64,000 nt of DNA, taken from the NCBI RefSeq assembly GCF_022842375.1, contig NZ_JALHPR010000002.1, forward strand, positions 62,001 through 126,000. Reading direction: 5' to 3'. The notes beneath the pieces are model-generated. The model was not told the DNA's origin. It saw nothing but the letters and a program-made list of their open reading frames with translations, and searched no databases. The stretch comes from Elioraea sp. (GTDB lineage: Bacteria > Pseudomonadota > Alphaproteobacteria > Acetobacterales > Acetobacteraceae). The position numbers and the translations under genes were made by a program. Position 1 is the first letter of the stretch, and each line of letters begins with the position of its first letter. Below are positions 38,877 through 55,701 of this stretch, in pieces.

Positions 38877-38880
38877 AGGC

Positions 38881-39349: not shown

Positions 39350-40546
39350 TCACAGGATGGTGCCGTCCTGCGCGACGAGGCGGCCTCGGAAGAACACCAG
39401 GCGCCGTGGCGGATGCTGGCCAATCGCCTCGCCAATGGTCTCGGCCGGGATGGTGAAGAAACTCGCCTCCTTGCCAACGGCGATTCCGTGGCCGGCGATG
39501 CCGAGCACCTCTGCGCCGACGGAGGAGCACATGGCGAACAACTGCTCCAGCAGGGTGTCGTGACGGACATCGACGCGCCAGCCGATGATCGCCGCGCGCT
39601 CCAGCATGTCGCCGTTGCCGTAGGGGCTCCAGGTGTCGCGCACATCGTCATTGCCGCAGAACACACGCACGCCAGCACCAGCGAGCGCAAAGAGCGGCGG
39701 CAGCGTGGCGCCGCCAGCGCCATGGCTCGCCAACGCAACGCCGGCTTCTGCCATCAGCTCGGCTGCTGCCTTCTGCTTGCTCTCAGCGACGCCGCCGAGG
39801 CAGAAGCCGTGGCTGATCGTCACCTTTCCCTGCATGCCAAGCGCGCGCGTACGAGCGCAGATCTCCTGCACGGCGTAGAGGCCGAGTTCGCCCGGCTCGT
39901 GCAGATGGATATCGATGCCGACCCCATGTCGCTCGGCGATGCCGAAGATGGTGTCGAGCTGGCCGCGCGCGTCGCGGTCAACCTCGGATGGATCGATGCC
40001 GCCGACCAGGTCGGCGCCGGCGCGGATCGCATCATCGAGCAGTGCGGCGACACCAGGGACGCGCATCACGCCGGCCTGCGGAAAAGCCACGATCTGGATG
40101 CTGGCGAGATGCGCGTGCGCCTCCCGCGCCGCCAGCACGCCTTCGAGGGCACTCAGCTTGAAGGCGGGGGTGATGTCAGCATGAGTCCGAATATGGCCGG
40201 TGCCATGGGCCACGCAGCGGTGGATCAGCGCGCCCGCACGCGCGGCCGTCGGCAGCGGCAGGGCCGGCAGCGTCTCCTGGTCGGTTTCGATGCGGCTCAT
40301 GCGGAAGGGCTGCGCGCGATGCGGCATCCAGGGCAAGCCGAACAGCGTCTTGTCGAGGTGCATGTGCCCGTCGGTCAGTGCGGGCAGCACGAGATCGCCG
40401 CCGAGATCATGGACCGTACCGGCCTGGGGCATGGGGCCATCCGGGGGAATGATGGCGGCGATGCGCGTGCCCTCGATGGCAATTGCCATGCCCTGTCGGC
40501 CGTCAGGCAGGCGGACATTGTTGAGCAGGATGTCGGCGGCGGTCAT
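39350..40546 (-). CDS. Amidohydrolase, cytosine deaminase (CodA)-like
   Basis: 398 residues from MTAADILLNNVRLPDG; the longer frame upstream has no coding character. The amidohydrolase metal residues are visible as DGHMHLDKTLFG near residue 60, DIHLHEPGELGLYAV near 200, ISHGFCLGGV near 235 and FCGNDDVRDTWSPYGNGDML near 300. The HxH with following LDKT, and the GNDxxRDxWxPYGxGDML motif, are characteristic of cytosine deaminase and N-isopropylammelide hydrolase relatives. It should deaminate or hydrolyse a nitrogen heterocycle in the cytosol. No linked transporter or regulator is evident. Confidence 0.85.
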   Translation of the reverse strand: MTAADILLNNVRLPDGRQGMAIAIEGTRIAAIIPPDGPMPQAGTVHDLGGDLVLPALTDGHMHLDKTLFGLPWMPHRAQPFRMSRIETDQETLPALPLPTAARAGALIHRCVAHGTGHIRTHADITPAFKLSALEGVLAAREAHAHLASIQIVAFPQAGVMRVPGVAALLDDAIRAGADLVGGIDPSEVDRDARGQLDTIFGIAERHGVGIDIHLHEPGELGLYAVQEICARTRALGMQGKVTISHGFCLGGVAESKQKAAAELMAEAGVALASHGAGGATLPPLFALAGAGVRVFCGNDDVRDTWSPYGNGDMLERAAIIGWRVDVRHDTLLEQLFAMCSSVGAEVLGIAGHGIAVGKEASFFTIPAETIGEAIGQHPPRRLVFFRGRLVAQDGTIL

Positions 40547-41076
40547 TGCACGAACTCCGCGGTAGAACCGATTGCGAAACGCTGAGTGTCGCCCAGGCTT
40601 CCGGAGCCCGGCAAGGTGATGCACGCAGGACGTCGCTCGGACATGCGCCCTGTTCGCCCAAGCCGGACAGCGTACGAGCCGACAAGGGTCCAACGGCCGA
40701 CCCTACGAAAAGAGCAGCTGGTCACCACGCAGCCTGTGACGGTAGTCCCCCCGGCAGCCGAGCGGCGTCGATCTGGGCACGAGCGCGAACGAGTTCACCA
40801 ACCGCGTCGTCGGCCGCGCCTGTGCCGAGTACCTGGCCAGCGCAGACCTCCCCTCCCCCGTCCAAAGCGATGACACCATCCCCCACGTCCACCGACAACA
40901 CGAGCGTCGCCTTTGTGCTGAACCGAGATTTTCGGTTCAAGAAGCGTGGGCGTGGACGGCGCGCTATGGCAGCGCCTGAAATCCCCCCCCCCCCGAGCCG
41001 TCACTATCGGCGCGGGTGAACAAGTTTCGCGTGGCCTCTGTAGCCCTGCCGGCCCGTGTGTTGACGACAGCCGCAC
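40547..41076. other. Long gap with a 12-C homopolymer
   Basis: No supported gene. The plus strand has a run of 12 C at 40983-40994, unusual in this sequence and liable to length variation or sequencing error. A short frame (40722-40940, minus) lacks family likeness. Confidence 0.4.
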
Positions 41077-41748
41077 TCAGAATGGCGCGACAGAAGAAAT
41101 AAAATCGATTCCGTTTTGAACATCCCGTTGCATGGCAATCCGAGCGGCCACGGGATCCCGCGCTCGCAGCGCTGCAATTACCGCCTCATGAAGGCCACGC
41201 TTCTTTACGACGCCGCGCTCCCGGTAGAGGCTCAGCAGCGGGCCAGACTGAAGCCACAGGCTCTCAATGATTGGCAACAAAACGTGTGGGCGGCCGCCGC
41301 GATAGATGGCGAAGTGAAATTCGTGGTTGCGCACCACGTAGGCCTGCCACTTCGTCGGATCCAATGCGATCTCGTTCATTTCGTCACAGGCGATTTCGAG
41401 TGCATCCAGCTCGGACGATGTGATCGTCGGAGCTGCGATCTCCGTCGCCATACCTTCCATGTGCAGGCGAACACGACCAAGTTCCGCGTATTTCTCCCGC
41501 GTTATGGCTGGGATCTGCACGCCGCGTTTGGGAAGAATCTCCACGGCCCGCTCGGCCGCAAGACGCCGCAGGGCCTCGCGAACAGGCATCACGCTGGTGC
41601 CGAGCACCTGGGAAATCTGATTGAGGCTCAGTGTCTGCCCCGGAGCGTATAGCCCCGCCATGATGGCGCGCCGGACCTCCTGGTAAACGCGGTCGTGCAG
41701 CGTTGCCGTATCGACCCGCTGTAACACTGGTTGAATCGTCCCATCCAT
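41077..41748 (-). CDS. GntR family transcriptional regulator, FCD domain
   Basis: 223 residues. The winged helix (about residues 14-80) reads DRVYQEVRRAIMAGLYAPGQ, then SLNQISQVLGTSVMPVREALRRLAAERAVE. The FCD part has VVRNHEFHFAIYRGG (metal-binding His region) and ends with ARIAMQRDVQNGIDFI. It is divergent from the TAXI-TRAP/CoA operon, 181 bases away, and is its likely regulator. A perfect inverted repeat TGATC-N3-GATCA lies in the shared gap. Confidence 0.9.
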   Translation of the reverse strand: MDGTIQPVLQRVDTATLHDRVYQEVRRAIMAGLYAPGQTLSLNQISQVLGTSVMPVREALRRLAAERAVEILPKRGVQIPAITREKYAELGRVRLHMEGMATEIAAPTITSSELDALEIACDEMNEIALDPTKWQAYVVRNHEFHFAIYRGGRPHVLLPIIESLWLQSGPLLSLYRERGVVKKRGLHEAVIAALRARDPVAARIAMQRDVQNGIDFISSVAPF

Positions 41749-41929: not shown

Positions 41930-42919
41930 ATGGTCATCACACGACGTGCCATTGGTGCGCTCGCTGCGAGCGCAGCCATCTTCAAGACAGGCGGCGCGAA
42001 CGCGCAAGTGGCAGCGCCGCGGCGGCAGTTCCTATCACTGGCCACGTCGAGTGTCGGCGGCTCCTGGTATCCACTTGGCAGCGCGATGGCGACCGTGATC
42101 ACGCGCCACTACCCGATGCTCAACGTGAATACCGAGGTCACCGGCGGCACGAACGACAACCTCAATCTCCTACGCAGCCGCCGCGTCGACCTCGCATTAT
42201 CCACCACTGACCAGGCCTTCATGGCCATGAACGGGCGCGGCGCGTTCCAGGGCAATCCGGTGACGAGCTTTCAAGGCTTGATCGGCGGTCACATGATCAT
42301 CTGGCACCTCTACACACTGCGGCGAAACAACATCACGTCGATTGCCGACCTCCGCGGCAAACGCGTGTCGCTCGGCGGCGCAGGTTCGATCGGCAACGAG
42401 ATCGGCCAGATTGTGCTCGAGGCGCACGGCCTCAAGATGAACCAGGACTGGCGGCCGGAGTATCTGGGCCATGCGGACGGTACGGGCGCGCTGAAGGATG
42501 GGCGGGTCCACGCAGTCATCAACATCACCGCTGCCCCGACCGGTGCGATCACCGACATTACGAGCACCGACAGCGCAAATGTGGTGTTCATCAATCCGGA
42601 TCCGAACGTGCTCGATCGTTTGCTTGAGCAGTACCCATACTGGTCCCGCGCGGTGTTGCCGGGCGGCGTCTATCGCGGGCACGACCGTGATCTTCCGGGC
42701 AGCTTCGGCGTCGCGACGATTCTCGTTGCCGGGGACCGTGTGGACGAGGCAACCACGTATGCGATTACAAAGGCCTTGCTCGAGAACCAGCGCGAGCTTT
42801 CGGCCGCACACGCACTCGGCCGTGAGTGGACTACCGAAACAGCAACCCGGGGTATCAAGGGCGTCATTCCGTTCCATCCTGGCGCGGAGCGGTACCTGAA
42901 GGAGAAAGGGCTGCTGTAG
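41930..42919 (+). CDS. TAXI family TRAP substrate-binding protein
   Basis: 329 residues with a GGGAGGAGGAA ribosome site. The N-terminus MVITRRAIGALAAS is a signal with twin arginines, cleaved near ANAQ. The mature protein begins with LSLATSSVGGSWYPLGSAMA and has TEVTGGTNDNLNLLRSRRVD, DLRGKRVSLGGAGSIGN and AAPTGAITDI, all hallmarks of TAXI solute receptors. It is the first gene of a nine-gene operon and works with the fused permease encoded 16 bases downstream. TAXI systems typically carry glutamate, 2-oxoglutarate or other dicarboxylates; the ligand here is unknown. Confidence 0.92.
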   Translation: MVITRRAIGALAASAAIFKTGGANAQVAAPRRQFLSLATSSVGGSWYPLGSAMATVITRHYPMLNVNTEVTGGTNDNLNLLRSRRVDLALSTTDQAFMAMNGRGAFQGNPVTSFQGLIGGHMIIWHLYTLRRNNITSIADLRGKRVSLGGAGSIGNEIGQIVLEAHGLKMNQDWRPEYLGHADGTGALKDGRVHAVINITAAPTGAITDITSTDSANVVFINPDPNVLDRLLEQYPYWSRAVLPGGVYRGHDRDLPGSFGVATILVAGDRVDEATTYAITKALLENQRELSAAHALGREWTTETATRGIKGVIPFHPGAERYLKEKGLL

Positions 42920-42935
42920 CCGGGGCCGGCAGCCG

Positions 42936-44828
42936 ATGCGGGGCAGGCTTTTCGCAGTGAGCGTCGGGGCAATCGCCGCGACGTTCTCACTCTTTCATCT
43001 CTGGACGAGCTATGTCGGAACGCTGCCCACCCTGCAGCAGGCCTATGTTCATCTCGGCTTTGCGCTCGTCCTGATTTTCCTGACGAAGCCCTTGGTGAAG
43101 ACGGAGGGCAGGCCCGGCGCCGCATGGCTCAGGTGGACGGTGGACGGAACGCTGATCGCGGCCTCCGCATTTGTCAGCGCCTATGCCGTCGTGAATTTCC
43201 TGGAGCTATCGCAGCGCGGAGCCGGCAATCCTTCCGAACTGAGCATCTGGCTTGGCGTCGTCGCAGTCCTGATCGTGATCGAGGCCACGAGACGTATGGT
43301 TGGCCTGGCGCTGCCGATCCTCGCCACTGTCTTTCTCGTGTACGCTTTCGTGGGTCCCTACATGCCGGGCCCCCTTGGACACCGCGGATACGATCTCGAG
43401 AGGGTGGCGGCAACGCTCTATGTCACCACCTCGGGCCTTGCGGGAACGCCACTGCAAGTCTCTGCGACATACGTCGCAATCTTCATCATCTTCGCCGCCT
43501 TCCTCGATGCATCGGGCGCGGGGAAGTTCTTCATCGAGTGGAGCTATGCCGGGCTGGGCTGGCTGCGTGGCGGGCCGGCGAAGGTCGCCGTCGTGGGCAG
43601 CGCGCTGATGGGCACAATCTCCGGGTCCGCCGTCGCCAACGTCGTCGCAACCGGCACCTTCACCATTCCCGTCATGAAGCGGGCAGGACTGAAGCCCGCC
43701 TTCGCGGGAGGCGTCGAAGCTGCCGCATCGTCAGGCGGGCAGATCATGCCGCCCGTCATGGGCGCAGCTGCCTTCATCATGGTCGAAATCCTCGGAGCGC
43801 CGTACACCACGATCATGGCGGCCGCGCTTCTGCCTGCGGTCCTCTACTTTGTCGCGATCCTCGCGATGGTCGACTTCGAGGTCGCCAAGCAGGGCATCAA
43901 GGGTTTGCCGCGATCGGCACTTCCAAGCGCCTGGGGCATCTTCAAGCAAGGCTGGCATCTGCTCGCTCCGCTGGCCCTGCTGATCTATCTGCTTGTTGTC
44001 ATCGAGTACACGCCAATCACCTCAGCAGTCTACGGGATCGCTGCGATCTTCGCGGTGAGCTTCCTGCGCGGCGCGACGCGCATGAATCCACAACGGCTCT
44101 GGACGGCACTCCAAAGCGGGGGCACGGCGATGCTTGAAGTCGCCGCCGCCTGCGCCACGGCCGGCATCGTCATCGGCATACTGATGCTCACGGGCCTCGC
44201 CACACGGCTTTCCACGATCATGATCGGGTTGGCCGGCGGCAGCCTGTTTCTGCTGATGGTCATCACGATGGTCATCTCGCTGATTCTCGGGATGGGGCTG
44301 CCCACGTCCGCGGTCTATGTCGTGCTCGCGACGCTCGTCGTGCCTGCGATGGTTGAGATGGGCGTCGACCCGCTCGGCGCGCACATGTTCGTCTTCTATT
44401 TCGGCGTGCTGGCCAACGTCACACCGCCGGTGGCGATCGCTGCATATGCGGGAGCCGGGCTGGCTGGTTCCAACCCGACCGAAACGGGTGTCATCGCCTT
44501 CAAGATCGCGCTCGCGGGTTTCCTCCTCCCCTTTGTCTGGGTCTACAACCCCGCACTGCTGCTGCAGGGAGATGTTCTTGATATCGTGCTGGTAACGTTT
44601 TCCGCCCTCGTCGGCATTGTCGCGCTCGCGAGCGCGGTGCAGGGCTACCTGCCTGGAGGGCGCTCCCGCTGGTACCAGCGGCTCCTCATGGGCGCTGGGG
44701 CGCTGGCATTGATCAAGCCGGGCTTGGTGACTGATCTCCTGGGCTTCGGGCTGATCGGCATCGCGCTGCTATCCTGGTACGTCGGTCGTCGTGCCGCCGG
44801 CGTCGAAGCGACGGAACGAAGCACATGA
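42936..44828 (+). CDS. TRAP transporter fused permease (4TM/12TM)
   Basis: 630 residues, the usual size for TAXI-linked fusions of small and large permease. The first about 150 residues hold the DctQ-like helices (LFHLWTSYVGTLPTLQQAYV). The large part has GPLGHRGYDLERVAATLYVT, then MGTISGSAVANVVATGTFTI and EAAASSGGQIMPPVMGAAAF. Near the end are LILGMGLPTSAVYVVLATLV and VLANVTPPVAIAAYAGAGLA. It is the ion-driven channel for the TAXI receptor. Its stop overlaps the start of the flavoprotein gene by four bases. Confidence 0.93.
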   Translation: MRGRLFAVSVGAIAATFSLFHLWTSYVGTLPTLQQAYVHLGFALVLIFLTKPLVKTEGRPGAAWLRWTVDGTLIAASAFVSAYAVVNFLELSQRGAGNPSELSIWLGVVAVLIVIEATRRMVGLALPILATVFLVYAFVGPYMPGPLGHRGYDLERVAATLYVTTSGLAGTPLQVSATYVAIFIIFAAFLDASGAGKFFIEWSYAGLGWLRGGPAKVAVVGSALMGTISGSAVANVVATGTFTIPVMKRAGLKPAFAGGVEAAASSGGQIMPPVMGAAAFIMVEILGAPYTTIMAAALLPAVLYFVAILAMVDFEVAKQGIKGLPRSALPSAWGIFKQGWHLLAPLALLIYLLVVIEYTPITSAVYGIAAIFAVSFLRGATRMNPQRLWTALQSGGTAMLEVAAACATAGIVIGILMLTGLATRLSTIMIGLAGGSLFLLMVITMVISLILGMGLPTSAVYVVLATLVVPAMVEMGVDPLGAHMFVFYFGVLANVTPPVAIAAYAGAGLAGSNPTETGVIAFKIALAGFLLPFVWVYNPALLLQGDVLDIVLVTFSALVGIVALASAVQGYLPGGRSRWYQRLLMGAGALALIKPGLVTDLLGFGLIGIALLSWYVGRRAAGVEATERST

Positions 44829-46489
44829 GCCGTGCGAGCGAGTTCCCCGCGCACGGTTCCACGGAAGTCGACGTACTGGTCCTCGGCGGAGGCATCGCTG
44901 GCCATCGCGCCGCCGTAGCAGCGCGACAAGCGGGACGTAGCGTGGCGATCGCCTATCTCGCGCAGGGTGCGTCGCCATACATCATCGGCGCGAATGTACC
45001 ACTCGGCGCCGCTGACCCGGCCGACGGCCCGGCCGTCTTCTTTGACGACATCGTGCGCGGCGGATACGGCCTGAACGATCGTCGCCTCGTCGAGGTCCTT
45101 GCAACGCAGGCCACTGTTGCCTTTGCGGAGCTGTCTGCGCTCGGGGTGCCCTTCGCGCGTGAGGGAGACCGTGTGTTGCAGCGTCATCTCTCGGGCAACA
45201 CCTATCCACGCTCCGTGTACGTACCGGAGGGCACGGGACGCGCCATCCTCGACAAATTGCGCGCGCACGTCAGTGAGATCGGGGTTGCGGTCCATGCAGG
45301 ATGGAAGGCACTCGCACTGTTGAAGGACAGTGATGACGTCGTCGGCGCATTGCTTGCGAAGCGTCACGGAAGTGAACTGCTGACCATCAGGGCGCGCGCG
45401 ACCGTTCTCGCAATGGGCGGGATCGGGCAGATCTACGACGACAGCACCTATCCGACCGATGTCGCCTCCGACGCCTATGCGCTCGCCTTCGAAGCAGGTG
45501 CATCCCTCATCGACATGGAGTTCGTCCAGTTCGAACCCGTGGTCACGGTCTGGCCGGACGAGTGCCGCGGCCTCGAGATGCCAACCGCCATGCTCGGCGA
45601 CGGCGCCCGCCTGCTGAACGCAGAGGGCGAGCGTTTCATGTTTCGCTACAATCCCGAGCATGGCGAAAAGCGTCTCGAGAAGGCGCGACTCTCGCTCTGC
45701 ATCCAGCGCGAGATCGATGAGGGTCGTGGCCTCTCGGACGGCTCGGTGCTTTTCGATACGACCTCGGTGCCGCGCGATCGACTCGAGAGCTATGTATCGC
45801 ACTGCAAGCGCCTGCGTGCAGCAGGGCTAGAACCGTCAATCCAAGGGCCGCATGTGCGGCCGGCCGCACACAGCCAGATGGGGGGAGTCCTCATCGACGA
45901 CCGCGGCTGGTCCGGGGTTCCTGGGCTTTATGCCGGGGGCGAAGCTGCTGGTGGCTTGCACGGGGCCAGCCGGCTGGCTGGCAACGGCGGCAGCGACACG
46001 ATCGTCTTTGGCGCTGTCGCAGGGCGTGGCGCCGCGGATGGTCTCCTTGATGCGACGTCGCGTGACTGGCGTCGGATCGAAGCGACAGCACTCGCGCCGC
46101 TGCGCCGCGCGTTGGGCGGCACGACGAGCGGTGTCGTGCCGAAGTCGGTAAAGGACCGCATCCGACGGATCATGCCGGCGGCCGCCGGGCTCTATCGCGA
46201 CGACGGTGGGCTTCGTACTGGTCTCGACGAGCTGCGCAGCCTGCAACGCGAAATCGACGGCGGGCTGGAGGCGTCAGACCTCGCGTCGGCCATCGCTGCG
46301 GGCGAGGCTGCGAACATGGCGTTGGTTTCCCGCATCGTGCTGCGCGCCGCGCTTGGCCGCGAGGAGAGCCGGGGGGCGCATCAGCGACGCGACTTCCCGA
46401 GCCAGGATGACGCGAGGTGGACGAAGCACCTCGCCTGGCACTGCGGATCGGGCGACGAGGAAGTGATGAGCTTCGTCCCGGTCCGATGA
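44825..46489 (+). CDS. FAD-dependent flavoprotein of the fumarate reductase/L-aspartate oxidase type
   Basis: 554 residues. FAD binding is marked by DVLVLGGGIAGHRAAVAARQ at residues 15-35 and by LYAGGEAAGGLHGASRLAGN near residue 378. The middle has TVLAMGGIGQIYDDSTYP and DMEFVQFEPVVTVWP, typical of the capping domain. ESRGAHQRRDFPSQDDARW near the end is the conserved substrate Arg/His region. Members oxidise succinate, aspartate or related dicarboxylates. It is the first enzyme after the importer, so it likely oxidises or reduces the imported acid; no iron-sulfur partner gene is adjacent. Confidence 0.87.
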   Translation: MSRASEFPAHGSTEVDVLVLGGGIAGHRAAVAARQAGRSVAIAYLAQGASPYIIGANVPLGAADPADGPAVFFDDIVRGGYGLNDRRLVEVLATQATVAFAELSALGVPFAREGDRVLQRHLSGNTYPRSVYVPEGTGRAILDKLRAHVSEIGVAVHAGWKALALLKDSDDVVGALLAKRHGSELLTIRARATVLAMGGIGQIYDDSTYPTDVASDAYALAFEAGASLIDMEFVQFEPVVTVWPDECRGLEMPTAMLGDGARLLNAEGERFMFRYNPEHGEKRLEKARLSLCIQREIDEGRGLSDGSVLFDTTSVPRDRLESYVSHCKRLRAAGLEPSIQGPHVRPAAHSQMGGVLIDDRGWSGVPGLYAGGEAAGGLHGASRLAGNGGSDTIVFGAVAGRGAADGLLDATSRDWRRIEATALAPLRRALGGTTSGVVPKSVKDRIRRIMPAAAGLYRDDGGLRTGLDELRSLQREIDGGLEASDLASAIAAGEAANMALVSRIVLRAALGREESRGAHQRRDFPSQDDARWTKHLAWHCGSGDEEVMSFVPVR

Positions 46490-46520
46490 ATCACCACGAA
46501 CGCGATCAGCGGAGAGACAC

Positions 46521-47684
46521 ATGGAGAAGGCGCTCAGCGGCATCCGAGTTCTCGACTTCACGCGGCTCTACGCGGGGCCGTTCTGCACGATGCTGCTCGG
46601 CGACCTCGGCGCAGACGTGGTGAAGGTCGAGGCACCTGGCGGTGACCCGATCCGGCACCAGGGACCACCGTTCCATGGCGGTCACAGCATGAGTTACCTC
46701 GCCGTCAATCGGAACAAGCGCTCGATCGTGCTGGACATGAAGTCCGCGGAAGGTCGCGCCACAGCCCATCGCCTCGCACTGCGTGCCGACGTCATCGTCG
46801 AGAATTTCCGTCCTGACGTCATGCCGCGCCTCGGTCTCGGCTACGAGGAACTAGCAGCGCGCAATCCTGGCTTGGTCTACGCGGCGATGTCCGGTCTCGG
46901 CGCCGACGGCCCAGACCGAGACAAGGGTGCCTTCGACCTGACGATCCAGGCAGAAGGCGGATACATGAGCATTACCGGCGAGCGCGACGGCGCTCCGATC
47001 AAGCTCGGCACCTCCGCCTTCGATCTCATCTGCGGCCAGTATGCGATGGGAGCGATTGTAACCGCGCTGTTTGCACGCGCCCGAACGGGCAAGGGCCAGC
47101 GCGTCGAAACCAGCCTGCTTGAGGGACAGGTGAGCTTTCTTGTCGACGCGGCAATGGAGTGGCTGATCGGCGGCACCGTGCGCGGCAAGTGGGGCTCGGA
47201 GCATGCCGCACAGGTGCCCTACAAGGCGTTCCAGACCAGCGACGGTTGGCTCGTGATCGCCGCCGGCATGCAGAAACTGTTCGAGGCGTTCCTGCAGGTC
47301 ATCGGACGGACGGACCTGCTGGCCGACGTGCGCTTCGCCACGCTCGCCGCCCGCGTCGCGAACCGCGATGCAGTCCACGATGTGCTCGACGCTGAGGTGC
47401 GCCGGCATCAGACGGCAGCGCTGCACGCGGCGCTCGAGCACGCCAATGTTCCCTGCGCGCTCGTCAATGATATCCGCAGTGTCTTCGAGCACAGGCAGGT
47501 GCTTCATCGAGGCATGCGTCAGGAGGTCCAGCATCCGGGCTATGGCCGCATTTCGATGGTTGGGCCGGCAGTCAAGTACAGCGGCTTCGATGTCGCCGCG
47601 GACTGGCGCGCGCCACCGAACCTTGGCGAGGACCAGGACGCGGTGCTGCGCGACTGGCTGACGGATGCAGCACATGCAGCGTGA
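46521..47684 (+). CDS. CaiB/BaiF family CoA transferase
   Basis: 387 residues. The N-terminal LSGIRVLDFTRLYAGPFCTM, GADVVKVEAPGGDPIRHQGP and ENFRPDVMPRLGLGYEEL segments are the class III CoA-transferase signature. The catalytic Asp is in DKGAFDLTIQAEGG. It should move CoA from a donor thioester to the imported or oxidised carboxylate, making the substrate for the hydratase and dehydrogenase encoded downstream. The reading frame overlaps the beginning of the longest MaoC frame, but the start preferred there avoids this. Confidence 0.9.
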   Translation: MEKALSGIRVLDFTRLYAGPFCTMLLGDLGADVVKVEAPGGDPIRHQGPPFHGGHSMSYLAVNRNKRSIVLDMKSAEGRATAHRLALRADVIVENFRPDVMPRLGLGYEELAARNPGLVYAAMSGLGADGPDRDKGAFDLTIQAEGGYMSITGERDGAPIKLGTSAFDLICGQYAMGAIVTALFARARTGKGQRVETSLLEGQVSFLVDAAMEWLIGGTVRGKWGSEHAAQVPYKAFQTSDGWLVIAAGMQKLFEAFLQVIGRTDLLADVRFATLAARVANRDAVHDVLDAEVRRHQTAALHAALEHANVPCALVNDIRSVFEHRQVLHRGMRQEVQHPGYGRISMVGPAVKYSGFDVAADWRAPPNLGEDQDAVLRDWLTDAAHAA

Positions 47685-47697
47685 TCAGGATGGGCCG

Positions 47698-48114
47698 ATG
47701 GCCGACTCTGCCGTGGAAGGCGTCCGGATCGGCGCCTCCGCCCGCTTCACAAAGACGGTGTCGGAATCCGACGTCTACCTTTACGCGGGCATAACGGGCG
47801 ATTTCTCGCCCAACCACATCGACGAGCAGTACATGCAGGGCGGCAGGTACGGGCGACGCATCGCACACGGCACGCTGCTGATGGGATTCATGTCGGCCGC
47901 CTCGGCACGGCTGTATCTCGGCCGTACGGTCTCGCTCGGCTACGATCGTGTCCGCTTTCCCGCACCCGTCTTTTTCGGCGACACCATCACGACCGAGTAC
48001 ACCGTGCGCGAGTACGATGCTGACAAGAAACGGGTCATCGCTGAGGTGCGCTGCACCAACCAGAGTGACCAAGTGGTCGGTGCAGCGCTCAACATCCGCG
48101 CCTTCGTAGGCTGA
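47698..48114 (+). CDS. MaoC family hotdog-fold hydratase
   Basis: 138 residues from MADSAVEGV; an in-frame ATG at 47665 would overlap the CoA-transferase end. The (R)-hydratase motif is present as YAGITGDFSPNHIDEQYMQG, with the catalytic Asp and His, followed by GRRIAHGTLLMGFMSA. The fold is a single hotdog domain. It should add water to, or remove it from, a CoA thioester such as a mesaconyl- or enoyl-CoA. It sits between CoA transferase and crotonase genes, supporting a CoA-ester pathway. Confidence 0.87.
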   Translation: MADSAVEGVRIGASARFTKTVSESDVYLYAGITGDFSPNHIDEQYMQGGRYGRRIAHGTLLMGFMSAASARLYLGRTVSLGYDRVRFPAPVFFGDTITTEYTVREYDADKKRVIAEVRCTNQSDQVVGAALNIRAFVG

Positions 48115-48131
48115 CGTTACCGGGAGCTCCC

Positions 48132-48908
48132 ATGTCCATCCTTCTCTACGAGGAGCGCGACGGGGTCGCGCTGCTGACGCTGAACCGCCCCGAGGCGATG
48201 AACGCGATTTCGAGCGAACTGGCCGACGCGATGGCAGTCCAGCTGGAAGCGATCGCACAGAAGCGCGACATCCGTGCGGTGATCGTGACCGGGGCGGGCG
48301 AGAAGGCGTTCTCGGCCGGAACCGACCTCAAGGAGCGACGCGGGCTGGACGCGGACGGCAAGTGGGCACAGCGGACGCGGGGCTGGCGAGTCAACCGCAT
48401 GCTGCATGAGCTGCCGCAGCCCGTGATCGCTGCCGTGCACGGCTGGTGCCTCGGTGGTGGCTTCGAGCTGGCGTTGTTCTGTGACCTGCGTATCGCGGCG
48501 GAGGATGCGGTGTTTGCATTCCCCGAGATGACGCTCGGCGCCTACCCCGGCTCCGGCGCCGCAATCGCGTTGCCGCGACTGATCGGACGCGCACGGGCCA
48601 AGGAGCTGTTCTTCACCGCCCGCCGTGTTGCTGCGAGGGAAGCGCTGTTGCTTGGCATCGTCGAATGGGTGGTGCCGCGCGATGCGCTGCTGGCGAAGGC
48701 CTGGGAGGTAACGGAGCAGGTGAAGTCGACCAGCCCCTTGGGCGTTTCAGCGGTCAAGCGAATGGTGAACGAGGGAGCCGATCTGGAATTCGAAGCAGCG
48801 TCGGACCTCAACGATCGTCTCCGGCGGCCACTTGAAGCGACCAAGGACTATGCGGAGGGAATCCAGGCCTTCTTCGAGCGGCGCAAACCCATTTTCCGGG
48901 GAGAGTAG
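48132..48908 (+). CDS. Enoyl-CoA hydratase/isomerase (crotonase) family
   Basis: 258 residues. LLTLNRPEAMNAISSELADA is the N-terminal CoA-binding start and GAGEKAFSAGTDLKER holds the first oxyanion-hole loop. VHGWCLGGGFELALFCDLRI holds the second, and FPEMTLGAYPGSGAAIALPR has the general-acid Glu in the usual PE position. The family spans hydratases, isomerases, hydrolases and lyases acting on acyl-CoA. Only one of the two typical catalytic Glu positions is obvious, so the exact chemistry is open. It lies two bases before the acyl-CoA dehydrogenase gene. Confidence 0.9.
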   Translation: MSILLYEERDGVALLTLNRPEAMNAISSELADAMAVQLEAIAQKRDIRAVIVTGAGEKAFSAGTDLKERRGLDADGKWAQRTRGWRVNRMLHELPQPVIAAVHGWCLGGGFELALFCDLRIAAEDAVFAFPEMTLGAYPGSGAAIALPRLIGRARAKELFFTARRVAAREALLLGIVEWVVPRDALLAKAWEVTEQVKSTSPLGVSAVKRMVNEGADLEFEAASDLNDRLRRPLEATKDYAEGIQAFFERRKPIFRGE

Positions 48909-48910
48909 CC

Positions 48911-50056
48911 ATGGACTTCAGTCTCACGGAGGAGCAGCGCGTCGGCGTCGACGGCTGGAGCCGCTTTGTCCAGAAGCACATCAAGCCGATCACCGACCAG
49001 CACCGCGATGCCCTGATCCCCGCGCCCGTGCTGAAGCGTCTGCTCGGAATGACGGCCGCCTATGGTGTCGGCTGCGGCTGGGTGCCGGAGGATGGCGGCG
49101 GCCTTGGGCTGGACTTCCTGACCAGCGGCCTTCTCTACGAGGAGTTGTCACGCGTCTCGGCCGACCTCGCCGGCGCGGCGTTCGTCAACGAAGGGGCCGC
49201 GCTGAAAGTCTATAATGCCGGGTCGCCCGCGATCAGGGAGCGCTACCTCGCACCAACGCTGCGCGGGGAACTGATCGGCTGCTCGGCGATCAGCGAACCC
49301 AATGCCGGCTCCAATGTGCGCGCGATGCGCACACGGGCTGTTCGCGACGGGGACCGCTTCCGCATAACCGGCGAGAAGATGTGGATCTCCAACAGTTCGG
49401 TCGCCGACTACGTGACCTTGGTCGCAGCGACCGGCGAGCAGGAGTTCACCATGTTCCTCGTCGACCGTCAGGAGCATGGCTTTGAAACGCGCGAGGCCGA
49501 GAAGCTCGGCTTGAACGGCTGGTCGCTCGGCCAGGTGATCCTGCAGGACGTCATCGTTCCGGCAGAGAACGTGATGGGAGGCGTCGGCCAGGGGCTGCGC
49601 GAAACCATGAAGGGCTTCGAGCGCTCGCGCTGCTTCATTTCGCTGCTCGGCCTCGGCATGGCGAAGGCAAGCCTGGATGCCAGCATCGACTATGCGAAGC
49701 AGCGCGAGAGCTTCGGCAAACCGATCGCGGGCCACCAGCTCATCCAGCAACTGATTGCCGAGATGGCTACCGAGCTCGAGGCGGCGCGATTGATGGTCTA
49801 TCGGGCGCTGAGCATCCTGAACTCCGGTACGCGCTCCAACATCGAGGCGGCCATGGCAAAGGCCTTCGCGACCGAGGCCGCCGTCCGCATTGCCTCCAAG
49901 GCGATCGAGGTGCACGGCGCCTTCGGGATCAGCCGCGAGTTTCCGGTCGAACGAAACTTCAGAAGCACGCGCATGCTGACCATTCCCGACGGAACGACGC
50001 AGATCAACAACCTGATCATCGGCCGCATCCTGCTCGGAACTGATGCTTTTGCATGA
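48911..50056 (+). CDS. Acyl-CoA dehydrogenase family protein with Asp at the catalytic-base position
   Basis: 381 residues. The fold markers are GCSAISEPNAGSNVRAMRTR (FAD-binding loop), GEKMWISNSSVADYVTLVAA and RESFGKPIAGHQLIQQLIAE. IEVHGAFGISREFPVERNFR occurs near residue 325. In short-chain members the catalytic Glu sits in a Y/xEGTxQI motif near the C-terminus; here that place reads TIPDGTTQINNLIIGR with Asp360. It may use a shorter base or a different residue, as in some cyclic or branched acyl-CoA dehydrogenases. It should oxidise the CoA ester formed earlier in the operon; no electron-transfer flavoprotein gene is adjacent. Confidence 0.88.
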   Translation: MDFSLTEEQRVGVDGWSRFVQKHIKPITDQHRDALIPAPVLKRLLGMTAAYGVGCGWVPEDGGGLGLDFLTSGLLYEELSRVSADLAGAAFVNEGAALKVYNAGSPAIRERYLAPTLRGELIGCSAISEPNAGSNVRAMRTRAVRDGDRFRITGEKMWISNSSVADYVTLVAATGEQEFTMFLVDRQEHGFETREAEKLGLNGWSLGQVILQDVIVPAENVMGGVGQGLRETMKGFERSRCFISLLGLGMAKASLDASIDYAKQRESFGKPIAGHQLIQQLIAEMATELEAARLMVYRALSILNSGTRSNIEAAMAKAFATEAAVRIASKAIEVHGAFGISREFPVERNFRSTRMLTIPDGTTQINNLIIGRILLGTDAFA

Positions 50057-50090
50057 AGGCGGGGCGCAGTCCGGCAACCGAGGGGGGCAC

Positions 50091-51479
50091 ATGACGCGGG
50101 CCAACCGCACCAGCAAGCTCGCGGAGTTCGTTGCCGGATTCCGCTGGGAAGACCTACCGGAGGCCGTTCGCGGCAAGACCGTCGAACTCGTGCACGATGG
50201 TGCCGGCGCACTCGTTGCTGCGGCGAACCCAACCTTCTCGACAGGGCGCCTGATCGCTGCCTTCGTGCGGAACCAGGGCGGGGCCGAGCAGGCAACCGTC
50301 GTTGGGCACGGCTTCCGGACGTCGACGGTCATGGCGGCGCTCGCGAACGGAACGATGGGCTACGCGTGTGACGTGGAGCCGCACCATCCAGAGGGCATCC
50401 TGCATCCGATCGCCGTGATGGTTCCGACGGCCCTGGCAGTCGGGGAGTACAGCCGCGCGACGGGAGCTCGATTCCTCGCCGCGGTCGCGCTCGGCCTCGA
50501 AGTCGAATACCGTGTCTCGATCGCGCTCGGACCGGCGGAGCAGTATGCGCTCGGCTTCCACCCTTCCGCGATCTGCGGCACGTTCGGTGCGGCCGCCGCG
50601 GCCTCCTTCCTGCTCCAGCTGCCGGCCGAAGCGGTCGGTCGCGCCTTCGGCCTGGCGGCCTGCCAGGCATCAGGCCTGATGGCTTGGGAAAGCGACCCGA
50701 CCGAGAATGCCCGCCCCTTCCAGATGGGGCTGGCGGCGCGCAATGGCGTGACTGCGGCGCTGCTCGCGCAGTCCGGCTTCGGTGCGCCCGCGGACATCTT
50801 CGACGAAGGGCACACGGTCTTCCGCGCCTATAGCCGCGCCGCCTCCCCGGAGCGCCTTGTCGAAGACCTCGGAAAGCACTGGAGCGGCATTACGGAGATG
50901 GCGATCAAGCCGTACTCCTGCGTGTCGTTCCTCCACCCTGGCCTGGATGCGTTACTCGGCCTGGTCGCTGAGAACGATCTGCGCCCAGAGAGCATCGAAG
51001 GCATCAGGCTTCGCTTCCCAAAGGCGGGCATCCACTGCGTCGACGACAACCCGCTGAAGAGCCACTGCGCGCAGTACATCCTGCCGGTAGCCGTCGCGAA
51101 CCGTCAGCTGAAGGTCGCCGACATCTTCATTGACCGCCGCATTGGGAATCCCGCGCTTGCGGCGCTCTGCAGGAAGGTCACCGTCGAGAGCGATCCTGAG
51201 CTCGACCGCTTGTTTCCCGAATTCTACGCGTCGATCGTGGAGGTCAGGACTACATCCGGAGATCTCCTGACACGGCGCAACGACATAGCCCGCGGCTATC
51301 CCGAATCACCGCTCTCGCCGCACGAGCTACAGGAGAAATTCGTCACCCTAGCCGGGTCGGTCATGGAGGCCAGGGCCGTGGTGCAACTCGACGGTGCGCT
51401 GCGCACGCTCGCCGGCGCCCCCGATCTCGTCGAGCTGGCGCACCTGCTTGGGACCCCGGCGAGGCAGGCAACCCCATGA
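50091..51479 (+). CDS. MmgE/PrpD family protein (second)
   Basis: 462 residues from MTRANRTSKLAEF, preceded by AGGGGGG; the frame upstream overlaps the dehydrogenase. Features are ELVHDGAGALVAAANPTFST, LANGTMGYACDVEPHHPEGI near residue 85, and AIKPYSCVSFLHPGLDALLG near 282. It belongs to the same broad family as the gene at 3932 but is only distantly similar. Family members dehydrate 2-methylcitrate or decarboxylate aconitate; many handle unknown carboxylates. Its place in an acyl-CoA operon suggests hydration/dehydration or decarboxylation of a free dicarboxylate or tricarboxylate. Its stop overlaps the next start. Confidence 0.87.
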   Translation: MTRANRTSKLAEFVAGFRWEDLPEAVRGKTVELVHDGAGALVAAANPTFSTGRLIAAFVRNQGGAEQATVVGHGFRTSTVMAALANGTMGYACDVEPHHPEGILHPIAVMVPTALAVGEYSRATGARFLAAVALGLEVEYRVSIALGPAEQYALGFHPSAICGTFGAAAAASFLLQLPAEAVGRAFGLAACQASGLMAWESDPTENARPFQMGLAARNGVTAALLAQSGFGAPADIFDEGHTVFRAYSRAASPERLVEDLGKHWSGITEMAIKPYSCVSFLHPGLDALLGLVAENDLRPESIEGIRLRFPKAGIHCVDDNPLKSHCAQYILPVAVANRQLKVADIFIDRRIGNPALAALCRKVTVESDPELDRLFPEFYASIVEVRTTSGDLLTRRNDIARGYPESPLSPHELQEKFVTLAGSVMEARAVVQLDGALRTLAGAPDLVELAHLLGTPARQATP

Positions 51480-52282
51480 GGGTCGGGCTCGCCGGCTTCG
51501 GCAATGTCGGCAAACAGGTCGCGGAGCGACTGAGCGCCGGCTGCCTGGACGGCGTTCGGCTGACCGCCGTGACGGCGCGCGACCTCGAGCGTGCCGCCAG
51601 ATCCGCCGCGTCGTTGACACCCGAGCCGGCCGTGGTGCCGCTTGCGGCGCTACCGGCTCTCTGCGACATCGTCGTCGAGTGCGCGACTGCGGACAGTTTC
51701 CCGGAGATCGCTCGTACCGTGCTCCACGCCGGCCTGATGCTCGTCTGCGTCAGCGCTGGGGGCGTGCCCAACTGCCCGGAACTGGTAGACCTTGCGCGAA
51801 AGCACGGGGGGCGCGTGCGGATCGCCTCTGGCGCGATGCCGGGGCTGGACATCATCCGCTCGGCTGCCGAGGGTACAATCCATCGGGTGCATCTGGCATC
51901 ACGCATCCGGCCTGACTCGCTTGCCCACGAGCCCTACGTTCTCGCAGCCGGCCACGACTTCTCGGCACGCCCACCCGTCTCGCCGGTGCTGGTCTTCGAG
52001 GGCACCGCCGGCGAGGCCGCGGCGCACTTCCCACGCCACTTCAATGTTGCAGTGTCGCTCAGCATCGCCGGGATCGGCTTCGAGAGAACGTCGGTAGAGA
52101 TCTGGGCCGATCCACAGCTGCAAGGAACTGTCCACTGTGTTGAGCTTGACGCCGAGGAGGTCGGCCTCACCATGACGAGCCGGAACCGCCCCTCGGCGAA
52201 CCCGCGAACCTCCCGCATCGTTGCGCCGAGCATCATCGCGGCGCTCCGATCGTTGGTGGCCCCCGTCATCGCGGGCTCGTAA
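51476..52282 (+). CDS. L-aspartate dehydrogenase-like (NadX family)
   Basis: 268 residues. The NAD(P)-binding motif VGLAGFGNVGKQVAERL is at the N-terminus, with ALCDIVVECATADSFPEIA following. The catalytic half has GEAAAHFPRHFNVAVSLSIA and NRPSANPRTSRIVAPSIIAAL, which fit the FPxNxNVA and NPKTS features of NadX. Such enzymes interconvert aspartate and oxaloacetate or iminoaspartate with ammonia. As the last gene of the TAXI/CoA operon it hints that the substrate or an intermediate is an amino dicarboxylate (inference). Its ATG overlaps the previous stop by ATGA. Confidence 0.82.
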   Translation: MRVGLAGFGNVGKQVAERLSAGCLDGVRLTAVTARDLERAARSAASLTPEPAVVPLAALPALCDIVVECATADSFPEIARTVLHAGLMLVCVSAGGVPNCPELVDLARKHGGRVRIASGAMPGLDIIRSAAEGTIHRVHLASRIRPDSLAHEPYVLAAGHDFSARPPVSPVLVFEGTAGEAAAHFPRHFNVAVSLSIAGIGFERTSVEIWADPQLQGTVHCVELDAEEVGLTMTSRNRPSANPRTSRIVAPSIIAALRSLVAPVIAGS

Positions 52283-52609: not shown

Positions 52610-52918
52610 AAGCGCCCGTGACGCGTCGAACAGGTGGACGGCTTCGGCGGCAACCGACAGCCTCAGACGGTCGCCCTGCGTTACCGGCCGGCGGCCTCGC
52701 AACACCGGCGACAGGCGCCGCCCGCCCGCGCCACCACCGCCTGCTCCGAGCCCATCTGCGCCACCGCGTCGATGATCACCTCCGGGTCGTTGGTCGACGA
52801 CGAGGCCGCGACGTCCTCGGGACGGATGCCCACCGGCACCGGCCGGCCAGCTTCGATCGCCGCAGGCCGGTCAAGCCGCAGTGTATGAGCCCCCTCGATC
52901 TCCACCGCCAGCGAGCCG
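52610..52918 (-). pseudogene. C-terminal (TOBE) remnant of a sugar ABC-transporter ATPase
   Basis: The minus strand reads LAVEIEGAHTLRLDRPAAIE, then GRPVPVGIRPEDVAASSSTN and VIIDAVAQMGSEQAVVARAGG. After a frame change it reads VTQGDRLRLSVAAEAVHLFD. This is the C-terminal regulatory/TOBE region of UgpC/MsmK-type ATPases (GIRPED and HLFD are standard). Walker A, the LSGGQ signature and Walker B are all absent. It overlaps the end of the LacI gene. Together with the ABC genes at 54406-57482 it suggests the operon's ATPase was lost by deletion. Confidence 0.72.
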
Positions 52919-53905
52919 CTGCGTCGACGCCGCAATCGACAGTTCGACAGGAAGTGTCAGTGTGCGGGGCTCGTGCTCCCTGTCTCCCGCGCGCAGTCGG
53001 GTCACCAGAAGGCGCATCGCCATTGCGCCCTGCTCCTGCATCGGGCGGCGGATCGTGGAGATCCGCGGAGAAATGACGCCCTCGCAGGGTAGCTGATCGA
53101 AGCACAGCAGCGACAGGTTGTCGGGCACCTTGATCCCAAGGTGGCCGATCGCCCGCAACGCACCCATGGACATCATGTTGTTGATGACGAACAGGGCCGA
53201 CGGACGGTCGGCGGCGCTCAGGATGTTCAGGGCTGCCTGATAACCGCCATCCTCGCGGAAGTTGCCGCGCTCGATGAAGCGCTCGGGCACGACAAAGCGT
53301 GCTGCCGCGAAGGTTTCCAGAAAGCCTCGCTCGCGCGCGCTGGACTGCGACGCCGTCAACGGCCCGGTGATGATCGCCACGTCGCGATGCCCGAGATCGA
53401 GAAGGTGTTGCGCGGCCAGCGTGCCACCACGGAAGTTGTCGATGGTGACCGTGTCGAAGCGCCGAGGCCCGAGCGTCTCCCGGTCCATCAACACCAACGG
53501 TATGGCGCTCGGCGCTTCGAACAGCGCTGTGCTCGAACGTTCCGATGCCGGTACGAGTATGACCCCGTCGACGCGGCCCACAATGTCGCGCAGCACGGCT
53601 TTCTCTAGCTCGATGTCCTCGTCCGTGTTGCACAGCACGAGACGCAGCCCGTTCTCGCGGCCCACCTCCTCCGCGCCGGCGACTGTCGCGGCGTAGTAGG
53701 GGTTCTGGATGTCGGGCACGATCATTGCGATGACCTGCGTGCTGCCCTTGCGCAGGTTCCGCGCGCTGGCACTCGCCCGAAAGCCGAGTTCCTCGATGGC
53801 CCTCTCGATCGCTTCCGACTGCCGAACGCTGTGTCCGTTGATGTGCCGCGACACTGTCGACGGCGCAACGCTCGCGGCACGCGCTACGTCATGGATCGTC
53901 GCCAA
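52871..53905 (-). CDS. LacI family transcriptional regulator
   Basis: 344 residues beginning at a TTG preceded by GGAGGGTGAT. The DNA-binding region ATIHDVARAASVAPSTVSRH and the hinge SASARNLRKGSTQ are typical of LacI regulators. The periplasmic-binding-like domain has IAMIVPDIQNPYYAATVAGA, GRVDGVILVPAS and ALFVINNMMSMGALRAIGHL. The C-terminal end overlaps an ABC-ATPase remnant, but the regulator itself is intact. It is divergent from the sugar ABC operon; matching operator-like sites occur next to both. It likely represses its own gene and the transporter until a sugar binds. Confidence 0.9.
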   Translation of the reverse strand: MATIHDVARAASVAPSTVSRHINGHSVRQSEAIERAIEELGFRASASARNLRKGSTQVIAMIVPDIQNPYYAATVAGAEEVGRENGLRLVLCNTDEDIELEKAVLRDIVGRVDGVILVPASERSSTALFEAPSAIPLVLMDRETLGPRRFDTVTIDNFRGGTLAAQHLLDLGHRDVAIITGPLTASQSSARERGFLETFAAARFVVPERFIERGNFREDGGYQAALNILSAADRPSALFVINNMMSMGALRAIGHLGIKVPDNLSLLCFDQLPCEGVISPRISTIRRPMQEQGAMAMRLLVTRLRAGDREHEPRTLTLPVELSIAASTQRLAGGGDRGGSYTAA

Positions 53906-53922
53906 ATCACCCTCCGAGAAAG

Positions 53923-53936
53923 TGAAACCGATTTGA
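53923..53936. promoter_or_regulatory. LacI-type operator at its own promoter
   Basis: TGAAACCGATTTGA, centred on CG, 18 bases before the LacI start. Its complement TCAAATCGGTTTCA matches the site at 54340 at 12 of 13 aligned bases. LacI-family operators are typically CG-centred palindromes of this size. Confidence 0.55.
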
Positions 53937-54339
53937 GTTGATCAAGGCACAACCCCGCATACTGGTCGGCAACACATCGGCGGCCACCAGAATCGGGGTA
54001 TGGGGAAACCGGCAGGGAATCAAGTGCCGGAACGGTCGGCGCCGTTACATCACCCCGTTTGCTCCTCAGCCGTTGATAGCGATAACCGGACCAGCGGGGG
54101 CGCCCGGATTCGAAGCGACCGGCAACAAAAGGTCGAGAAGCTAGGAAAAGCGGCACTTCCAGGCGCCAAGCTCTGGCGTTGGCTGCTGCGACCAGTCGGA
54201 TCGAGGGGGCACGCGTGCAGGCAACACTTGCGAGACGGCGGCAGCCGGTTTCTCAGGCGCCCCCCGGAGGCGCGACCGTCATGGCGGCAGAACTGGGTCG
54301 AAGTAGGCGTTAGGCGCAGATTCTCCTCGACAGCGTCAC
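53937..54339. other. Intergenic region between LacI and ABC genes
   Basis: About 400 bases with no supported gene. It should hold the ABC operon promoter; no clear -35/-10 pair is picked out. Confidence 0.4.
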
Positions 54340-54353
54340 TCAAATCGATTTCG
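54340..54353. promoter_or_regulatory. LacI-type operator upstream of the ABC operon
   Basis: TCAAATCGATTTCG contains the perfect CG-centred palindrome AAATCGATTT and lies 53 bases before the binding-protein gene. It matches the site near the LacI start except at the position after the CG centre and the last base. Confidence 0.6.
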
Positions 54354-54405
54354 GATTGGGTGGCGGAGAACCGATGCCTTCCCCCATAACGACAGGGAGA
54401 CCGAC

Positions 54406-55701
54406 ATGCGACCGAAAGGGATTTCGAAAGCCGCGATGATGGCCGGGGCGCTGATCGCCGGCCTCGCATTCCAATCTTCGAGTTTCGCGCAGGGCACCAC
54501 CGCGCGGCAGGTGACCCTCCGCTTCGCCACGACCGAAGACCCGACCAGGATGCAGCCGGTGATCGACGCCTTCACGGCGAAGAACCCCGGCGTCACCATC
54601 ATCCATGAATCCATTCCGTTCGACGACTTCGACAACGTGCTGCAGGCCCGTATAGGCCAGCGCGACTCAAACCCCGATGTCTTCACGGCGGACATGCCGG
54701 CGGTCGCCGCCCTGGTGCGGCGAGGCTTCCTGACCGACCTCACCACCAGGGTGGGTGATGTCGCCGCGATGCATCTGCCCGCGAGCATGGAGGCCGTCAC
54801 CGTCAACGGGCGCATCTTCGCACTGCCGGTCTCCACCTCGACGATGGTGATGTACTACAACGTCGATCGCCTGAGGGCTGCGGGGATCGACCTGCCCGGC
54901 CGTACGCCGAACGACCGCCTGACCTGGGAACAGGTCGTCGAGATGGGCCGCAAGGCTCAGGCGGCGGGTGCGCGCTGGGGCCTGCTCTGGGATCAGGTGA
55001 GCCGCATCTACCAGCAGCAGACGCTGGTGGAATCCCTCGGCGGCGGCAACGGCATCGATCCGCAGAACGAGCTCAGGCTGAACATCACGAACGACGCCTG
55101 GGTCCGCGGCTTCGAGTTCTACCGCGAGGCCTTTGCCTCCGGCCTGTCGCCGCGCGGCGTGCCTGGTCCGGGCCAGACGGCAGAGCTGTTCGCGTCAGGC
55201 GAGGTGGCCTTCTTCGCCGGCGGGCCCTGGTGGGTGCCGCGGCTGTTCGCCAACCGGCAGGGCCTGAACTATTCCTTCACGCCATACCCGTACTTCGCCG
55301 GCGGCACGCCCGTGACGCCCACCGGCTCCTGGGCGTGGGGTGTCAACCCGCACAGCCGGAACATGGACCTCGCGATCGAGTTCGTGAAGTTCGCCTCGCT
55401 CACGGAGGAGGGCGCGCTTGCAGCCGCTGCGCGCCAGCCGATCCCGCCCGCGAACGTGCAGGCGCTCAAGACCTACATCAACCAGGCGCTCTTCCAGACC
55501 GACAACCTCCGCGGCATCGGCCCGCTCATGGAGTATGAGCTGGCAAACACGGCCCGTATCCGGGCGCGCACCGTGGGCTGGATCCAGTTCCAGTCGATCC
55601 TGAACCGGACCATCGAGGACATCCGCAACGGCGCGCCCGTGCGGCCGGCCCTCCAATCCGCGGCCCAGCAGATCGAAGCGGCCTGGGCGCGCCTCCGCTA
55701 G
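54406..55701 (+). CDS. ABC transporter sugar-binding protein
   Basis: 431 residues preceded by an AGGGAGA site. The signal peptide ends SSSFAQG (residue about 28). The mature protein has LRFATTEDPTRMQPVIDAFT, NPGVTIIHESIPFDDFDNVL, VFTADMPAVAALVRRGFLTD and SGEVAFFAGGPWWVPRLFAN, all typical of family 1 (MalE/UgpB-like) carbohydrate receptors. It supplies ligand to the two permeases encoded next. Transcription probably responds to the LacI protein encoded upstream. Confidence 0.9.
   Translation: MRPKGISKAAMMAGALIAGLAFQSSSFAQGTTARQVTLRFATTEDPTRMQPVIDAFTAKNPGVTIIHESIPFDDFDNVLQARIGQRDSNPDVFTADMPAVAALVRRGFLTDLTTRVGDVAAMHLPASMEAVTVNGRIFALPVSTSTMVMYYNVDRLRAAGIDLPGRTPNDRLTWEQVVEMGRKAQAAGARWGLLWDQVSRIYQQQTLVESLGGGNGIDPQNELRLNITNDAWVRGFEFYREAFASGLSPRGVPGPGQTAELFASGEVAFFAGGPWWVPRLFANRQGLNYSFTPYPYFAGGTPVTPTGSWAWGVNPHSRNMDLAIEFVKFASLTEEGALAAAARQPIPPANVQALKTYINQALFQTDNLRGIGPLMEYELANTARIRARTVGWIQFQSILNRTIEDIRNGAPVRPALQSAAQQIEAAWARLR

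Follow-up and report, generated by a model that had tools for sequence, protein, structure and literature searches.

A TAXI-TRAP operon of Elioraea sp., related to and differing from methylsuccinate-type pathways and led by an unusual flavoprotein

Which acid would be imported and degraded by an operon that sets a TAXI-type TRAP transporter beside a flavoprotein, several coenzyme A (CoA) enzymes and an aspartate-dehydrogenase-like protein? The question is raised by a stretch of 64,000 nucleotides from Elioraea sp. (GCF_022842375.1, contig NZ_JALHPR010000002.1, positions 62,001–126,000, forward strand), referred to here as the window, in which nine intact co-directional open reading frames (ORFs) occupy positions 41930–52282 of the plus strand, with no gap exceeding 34 bases when preferred starts are used. 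With gene families assigned by Pfam and NCBIfam profile matches, these encode, in order, a TAXI receptor, a fused TRAP permease, a flavin adenine dinucleotide (FAD) flavoprotein, a CaiB-type CoA-transferase (CaiB), a MaoC-type hydratase (MaoC), a crotonase, an acyl-CoA dehydrogenase (ACAD), an MmgE/PrpD-family protein (PrpD) and an aspartate-dehydrogenase-like protein (AspDH). We hypothesize, tentatively and with somewhat less than even confidence, that this is a catabolic operon joined from modules for import, free-acid oxidation, CoA transfer, hydration, and epimerisation and deamination of a C4 amino-dicarboxylate, since TAXI-TRAP with the flavoprotein, the flavoprotein with CaiB, and PrpD with AspDH travel together across genomes.

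An earlier, sequence-only reading had named the nine genes, and both the ORFs and the profile matches bear its gene identities out. It had also called the operon tightly spaced, which the gaps confirm, and often overlapping, which applies to two to four of the eight junctions. With the preferred starts these measure, in order, 16, a 4-bp overlap, 31, 13, 17, 2, 34 and a 4-bp overlap; with the longest-ORF starts, MaoC (by 20 bp) and PrpD (by 14 bp) overlap their neighbours as well. The preferred starts of these two genes (MaoC 47698, PrpD 50091) were chosen with the upstream bases inspected, and that of MaoC was preferred because it matches the start of MaoC in a related genome, G008. Consensus scans found promoter- and terminator-like sites at chance level (1 found vs. 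1.1 expected; 7 found vs. 6.0 expected), and the case for co-transcription therefore rests on spacing and synteny, from which the nine genes are likely to form a single transcript.

The first of the modules, TAXI-TRAP with the flavoprotein, is found in the window and in three genomes of another family (G491, G1050 and G1052), where a permease 68–69% identical to that of the window lies beside a homologous flavoprotein in each case. There, the module adjoins either one or two dioxygenases of the TauD family together with an iron alcohol dehydrogenase, which in G491 scores over the 4-hydroxybutyrate dehydrogenase cut-off (572.6 vs. 500) and in G1050 and G1052 is 88–89% identical to the G491 enzyme. 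The fourth genome of that family, G1051, has TauD and the flavoprotein only, on a 3.1-kb contig. Since the flavoprotein is common to this TauD route and to the CoA route, it should act on a shared substrate or first product.

The second module, flavoprotein-CaiB-crotonase, occurs in the window and in G008, G997, G1272 and G226. Identities of the three proteins to those of the window are, respectively, 60, 66 and 52% in G008, 47, 52 and 40% in G997, and 41, 62 and 60% in G1272 (a chimeric flavoprotein on a 5.3-kb contig), and in G226 a C-terminal flavoprotein part (53%) accompanies CaiB (66%) and crotonase (63%). CaiB at E ≤ 1e-115 was present in at least 4 of 170 genomes (the window's own, G008, G226 and G1272), with the flavoprotein or a part of it adjoining in all these four; the flavoprotein lies beside CaiB in G997 too, and crotonase is near in all five genomes. 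Orthologues of ACAD and MaoC were seen in G008 only, G1272 having a remote ACAD (22%), and the G997 (34 kb) and G226 (19.5 kb) stretches yielded no homologue of ACAD, so the flavoprotein may perform the oxidation there. On one strand of the G008 locus, flavoprotein, CaiB and ACAD are accompanied by MmgE/PrpD and by an ATP-binding cassette (ABC) transporter that comes closest, though below cut-off, to the 2-aminoethylphosphonate types; the opposite strand bears a LysR regulator together with MaoC and crotonase. Also present at the G997 locus are a TctC receptor, a weak DHDPS-family protein and an aldehyde dehydrogenase whose closest types, again below cut-off, are those for 2,5-dioxovalerate.

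The third module, PrpD-AspDH, recurs in Shinella sp. PSBB067 (66 and 55% identical to the window proteins), G1244 (60 and 60%) and G1248 (59 and 55%), with no flavoprotein orthologue near the pair in the 32.8, 18 and 8.5 kb covered, respectively. PrpD adjoins four of the six AspDH at ≥51% identity, the window's included; near the other two (56 and 51.5%) no PrpD is annotated, and these lie on Rhizobium pMK-3, next to an Asp/Glu-racemase-family gene, and on an Agrobacterium leguminum tumour-inducing (Ti) plasmid, next to a thiamine pyrophosphate enzyme and a LysA-like gene. In these two plasmid loci (L141 and L142), the AspDH-like genes are accompanied by amino-acid ABC transporters, and opine-type contexts are possible. 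Across these loci the gene set appears as modules, to which one relative, G008, adds ACAD, MaoC and a PrpD of another kind.

The flavoprotein comprises FAD_binding_2 and a succinate dehydrogenase (SDH) C-terminal domain (Pfam), a likeness to SDH, fumarate reductase (FRD) and L-aspartate oxidase, and it falls far below the curated cut-offs of all 25 NCBIfam models shown out of 34, the best score being 344 bits against a cut-off of 718; on the L-aspartate oxidase (NadB) model TIGR00551 it reaches 242 bits against a cut-off of 453. We take the relevant residues of E. coli SdhA to be numbered His242, Arg286, His354 and Arg399. In alignments to solved relatives and to the family, the equivalents of His354 and Arg399 at the carboxylate site (His349 and Arg383 in the window) are kept in 8 of 8 clade members, whereas the His242 place is occupied by Glu237 and the Arg286 place by Leu291, again in all eight, one of which (G1272) is chimeric in its N-terminal third. 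A further difference from those relatives is the lack of partner subunits, as no Fe-S or membrane partner gene is present among the nine genes of the operon. Among 29 outgroup flavoproteins (29 chosen from 80 loci listed, less L048, dropped for a stop codon, plus G021), His is present in 25, Arg in 23, Lys at the Arg site in two, and both carboxylate residues in every one. Four outgroup rows (L016, L021, G021 and L069) have neither Arg nor Lys at the Arg286 place, and the loss of this residue is therefore not unique to the clade; L016 and L021, both from Nitrospirota, retain the substrate His, with Leu in the position of the catalytic Arg. Residue 288, which is Arg in seven members and Lys in one, might stand in for the missing Arg286, and the replacement of His by Glu237 suggests that this end of the substrate bears a cationic or neutral group.

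In the tree, the clade comprises seven rows with support of 100/100, G1272 being omitted because of its chimeric flavoprotein. Nearest to it stand L020 and L030, two rows on long branches that have Glu at the His242 site and keep Arg. An FdrA-type gene follows both flavoproteins (L020:9980-15558, over the model cut-off and with an AllG-type gene as well; L030:9977-13187, below it), hinting at ureide or carbamoyl chemistry of these sister proteins. Two homologues are incomplete or mixed. In G1272 (L107:2623-4239), the first ~180 residues are 62–88% like another kind of flavoprotein from G021 and the rest is like the window family, reflecting recombination or an assembly chimera, and G226 (L164:10573-13065) has the C-terminal part only; the ORF beside it has ABC permease domains and matches an IS4/5 transposase weakly, below the cut-off.

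Close relatives of the flavoprotein are rare. In the large genome searches, which included the own genome and whose counts are lower bounds because scoring was confined to the best 3–11 first-look candidates of each genome, it was found in at least 1 of 299 genomes of the order at 1e-100 (the own only), at least 2 of 385 of the class (own and G491) and at least 2 of 398 of the phylum (own and G997), both at 1e-110, and at least 3 of 299 of its own family at 1e-100 (own, G008 and G1272). It was present in at least 1 of 200 genomes of the family of G997 (G997 itself) and in 4 of 4 of that of G491. At 1e-60, at least 3 of 60 relatives had a match (own, G008 and G021, the last 34% identical and of the other kind). 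A plasmid search with the flavoprotein gave no match at 1e-50. The contig-scan matches listed, at 28–38% identity, were rejected as other SDH/FRD-superfamily flavoproteins outside the clade, since the search patterns fit the common DMEFVQF motif.

For the CoA enzymes, the closest solved relative of CaiB is succinate-hydroxymethylglutarate CoA-transferase (SUGCT; 299 bits, whole length), although CaiB scores 307 bits on the succinate-glutarate model against a cut-off of 750. The Asp aligned with that of human SUGCT, presumably catalytic, is common to 4 of 4 aligned sequences, as are both Glu positions of crotonase, to which we likewise assume catalytic roles. MaoC is 67% identical to its G008 counterpart and has the D-x4-H motif, but on the itaconyl-CoA hydratase (RipB/Ich) model it reaches 30.1 bits against a cut-off of 340, a strict one that none of 60 relatives passes. 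ACAD is 62% identical to that of G008, and both have Asp at the position that we take to be Glu376 of medium-chain acyl-CoA dehydrogenase, plus a Glu in FERSR. CaiB and ACAD are 37 and 33% identical to unverified genes beside Ich-like matches in relatives. Plasmid matches for CaiB, ACAD and TRAP (42–47% identical) were set aside after four loci were inspected and proved uninformative.

At the end of the operon, AspDH scores 247.9 bits on PRK13302, just under the cut-off of 253, and further below those of other NCBIfam aspartate dehydrogenase models. It keeps the His aligned with H189 of 2dc1, which we presume to have the same role as in that enzyme, and its presence in the window points to a C4 amino-dicarboxylate there. 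Its partner has both the N- and C-terminal Pfam domains of MmgE/PrpD. The residues named for iminodisuccinate (IDS) epimerase in PMC12290011 are H85, D88, H99, Y145, H150, K198 and K266. The window PrpD clade (4 of 4) resembles it in keeping the catalytic His99 and Tyr145 together with Asp88, His150 and Lys266, and differs in having Tyr for His85 and Arg for Lys198, at ~26% identity. Two carboxylate-binding residues of the methylsuccinate-isomerase-type set differ in all four. The G008 PrpD (27% identical to that of the window, another subfamily) reads H, E, H, H, K and K at the mapped sites, the complete set of six carboxylate-binding residues given for methylsuccinate isomerase, with Val replacing the second-base Tyr. 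The known MmgE/PrpD substrates have a common C4 1,4-dicarboxylate backbone (PMC12290011). That the window and G008 both have an MmgE/PrpD, though of different subfamilies, suggests a stereochemical or dehydration step on such a compound, and, with SUGCT closest to CaiB, the CoA activation of a dicarboxylate envisaged by the sequence-only reading fits; the end in a central metabolite that it proposed is conjectural.

The transporter belongs to TAXI-TRAP, receptor and fused permease both scoring over their NCBIfam cut-offs. A TAXI pocket motif is common to the window and its three orthologues. In VcGluP, a glutamate TAXI receptor that likewise has a fused permease, binding depends most on Y45 and Q93, according to PMC11574862; these places, mapped by the motif rather than by aligning VcGluP itself, are occupied by Trp and Thr in the window receptor as in 3 of 3 orthologues, and the window receptor is therefore probably not a glutamate receptor. 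In the own 4.8-Mb genome (G000), the NMT1_3 model (a TAXI receptor type) has ten matches across several contigs.

If the operon is joined from these modules, TAXI-TRAP would import a C4–C5 dicarboxylate-like acid that may carry an amino or substituted-amino group, and the flavoprotein would oxidise the free acid, His349 and Arg383 holding one carboxylate and the other end lying near Glu237. CaiB would then transfer CoA, probably from succinyl-CoA, crotonase and MaoC would hydrate the enoyl-CoA, and ACAD would give further oxidation. The PrpD-type protein would epimerise a C4 1,4-dicarboxylate, and AspDH would deaminate a C4 amino-dicarboxylate to an oxaloacetate-type acid. A bolder and on balance unlikely extension is that this clade represents a functional class new to the SDH superfamily (Glu for His242, without Arg286), its flavoproteins oxidising a dicarboxylate with an amino or N-substituted group and standing at the centre of two or more alternative routes, one by CoA transfer and hydration and another, in a different family, by TauD and alcohol dehydrogenase, feeding an unrecognised opine-like acid into central metabolism.

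Several points weigh against this hypothesis. Every reaction, the reaction order and the ligand are predicted from observed gene content, spacing, genes travelling together and residues kept or lost. The modules occur apart, and the operon therefore need not be one linear pathway; tblastn found no homologues of the CoA-pathway genes in the 32–36 kb around the G491, G1050 and G1052 module, and the AspDH homologue of G008 lies on another contig than its flavoprotein locus. As the flavoprotein lacks the Arg of its SDH relatives, free-acid oxidation is only putative. Finally, two supporting homologues, those of G226 and G1272, are damaged or chimeric, and the PrpD of G008 is of the other subfamily, without the second base.

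The closest described system is the itaconate/methylsuccinate cluster (P. aeruginosa PA0878-0886 and C. necator), which, according to PMC12290011 and PMC9875883, comprises CaiB, MaoC, acyl-CoA dehydrogenase and MmgE/PrpD. The operon may work partly like it, by analogy, in uptake, free-dicarboxylate isomerisation, CoA transfer, dehydrogenation and hydration. Our literature search found no gene-for-gene match to the nine-gene set, in line with the sequence-only reading, which had recognised no described pathway but had left this system unnamed; the set itself consists of modules also occurring apart. A variant pathway for such branched C5 dicarboxylates, with CaiB in the role of Ict, ACAD in that of methylsuccinyl-CoA dehydrogenase, MaoC serving as the hydratase and PrpD as the isomerase, and a lyase elsewhere in the genome, appears unlikely, even though four enzyme families and a transporter are shared and G008 joins the same four families with the full isomerase residue set, so that the MmgE/PrpD of that locus adds weight to it. 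The low Ich score of MaoC, subject to that strict cut-off, and the two altered carboxylate-binding residues of PrpD argue otherwise, the crotonase, SDH-like flavoprotein and AspDH are left unexplained, and no HpcH/CitE gene for an (S)-citramalyl-CoA lyase is present among the nine genes, the rest of the genome not having been searched for one. Tricarballylate is a much poorer candidate still, and we consider its use very improbable: aconitate formed by its oxidation would be decarboxylated by PrpD to itaconate and degraded via CaiB and MaoC, families that suit itaconate, and PrpD is indeed related to cis-aconitate decarboxylases. However, PrpD keeps the epimerase Tyr, a Lys that IDS epimerase retains is missing from it, no tricarballylate-dehydrogenase model is among the 25 families shown for the flavoprotein, and an extra Glu near a tricarboxylate would be unfavourable.

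The changed flavoprotein site, with Glu where His is expected, is what draws attention to an N-substituted aspartate or opine-like substrate, whose C-N bond would be opened by the flavoprotein (elsewhere by the TauD dioxygenase) and whose aspartate part would pass to PrpD and AspDH. The FdrA neighbours of sister flavoproteins with the same Glu, the His/Tyr pair that PrpD shares with IDS epimerase, the amino-acid ABC transporters beside AspDH homologues and the transporter type in G008 all point this way, but the support is indirect throughout, the sister flavoproteins have long branches, and only in the window were AspDH and a PrpD of its type seen next to the flavoprotein, and we regard this substrate, too, as unlikely. 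Less probable again is that there is no single pathway and that two or three separate catabolic modules were brought by chance into one transcribed regulon. Each module is found without the others, as this would predict; yet the spacing is tight throughout, a single regulator diverges from the operon, and G008 independently combines flavoprotein, CoA genes and MmgE/PrpD. We retain, as tentatively as before, a catabolic operon joined from modules, and view the locus as one that resembles the known methylsuccinate-type pathway, differs from it and is led by one unusual enzyme.

The operon and its regulator are listed in Table 1. Upstream, at 37731–40693 of the window, lie a choloylglycine-hydrolase-family amidase and an amidohydrolase, and downstream, at 52871–60517, a LacI regulator, an ABC solute receptor, a phosphotriesterase-family protein, a GntR regulator and a DctP-type TRAP receptor.

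Table 1. Operon genes and divergent regulator, in window positions.
Feature	Position	Strand	Basis
GntR/FCD-family regulator, divergent from operon	41077..41748	-	Pfam GntR and FCD over cut-off
TAXI-type TRAP solute receptor	41930..42919	+	TIGR02122 224 bits, cut-off 84
Fused TRAP permease	42936..44828	+	TIGR02123 682 bits, cut-off 321
SDH/FRD/NadB-superfamily flavoprotein	44825..46489	+	Pfam, alignments, residue counts, tree
Class III (CaiB-type) CoA-transferase	46521..47684	+	PF02515 411 bits
MaoC-type hydratase	47698..48114	+	PF01575 75 bits; ORF opens at 47665
Crotonase / enoyl-CoA hydratase	48132..48908	+	PF00378 214 bits
Acyl-CoA dehydrogenase (ACAD)	48911..50056	+	Three ACAD domains
MmgE/PrpD-family protein	50091..51479	+	PF03972 188 bits, PF19305 97 bits; ORF opens at 50043
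Aspartate-dehydrogenase-like protein (AspDH)	51476..52282	+	PF01958 86 bits

TAXI ligands are established for a handful of systems only, those known being glutamate-type compounds, 2-oxo- and 2-hydroxyglutarate, and phthalate (PMC12344293), and MmgE/PrpD proteins are described as mostly uncharacterised in PMC12290011. Here a TAXI system is tied both to a flavoprotein whose active site has been rebuilt and to the PrpD-AspDH pair, and one TAXI ligand could open three protein families at once.

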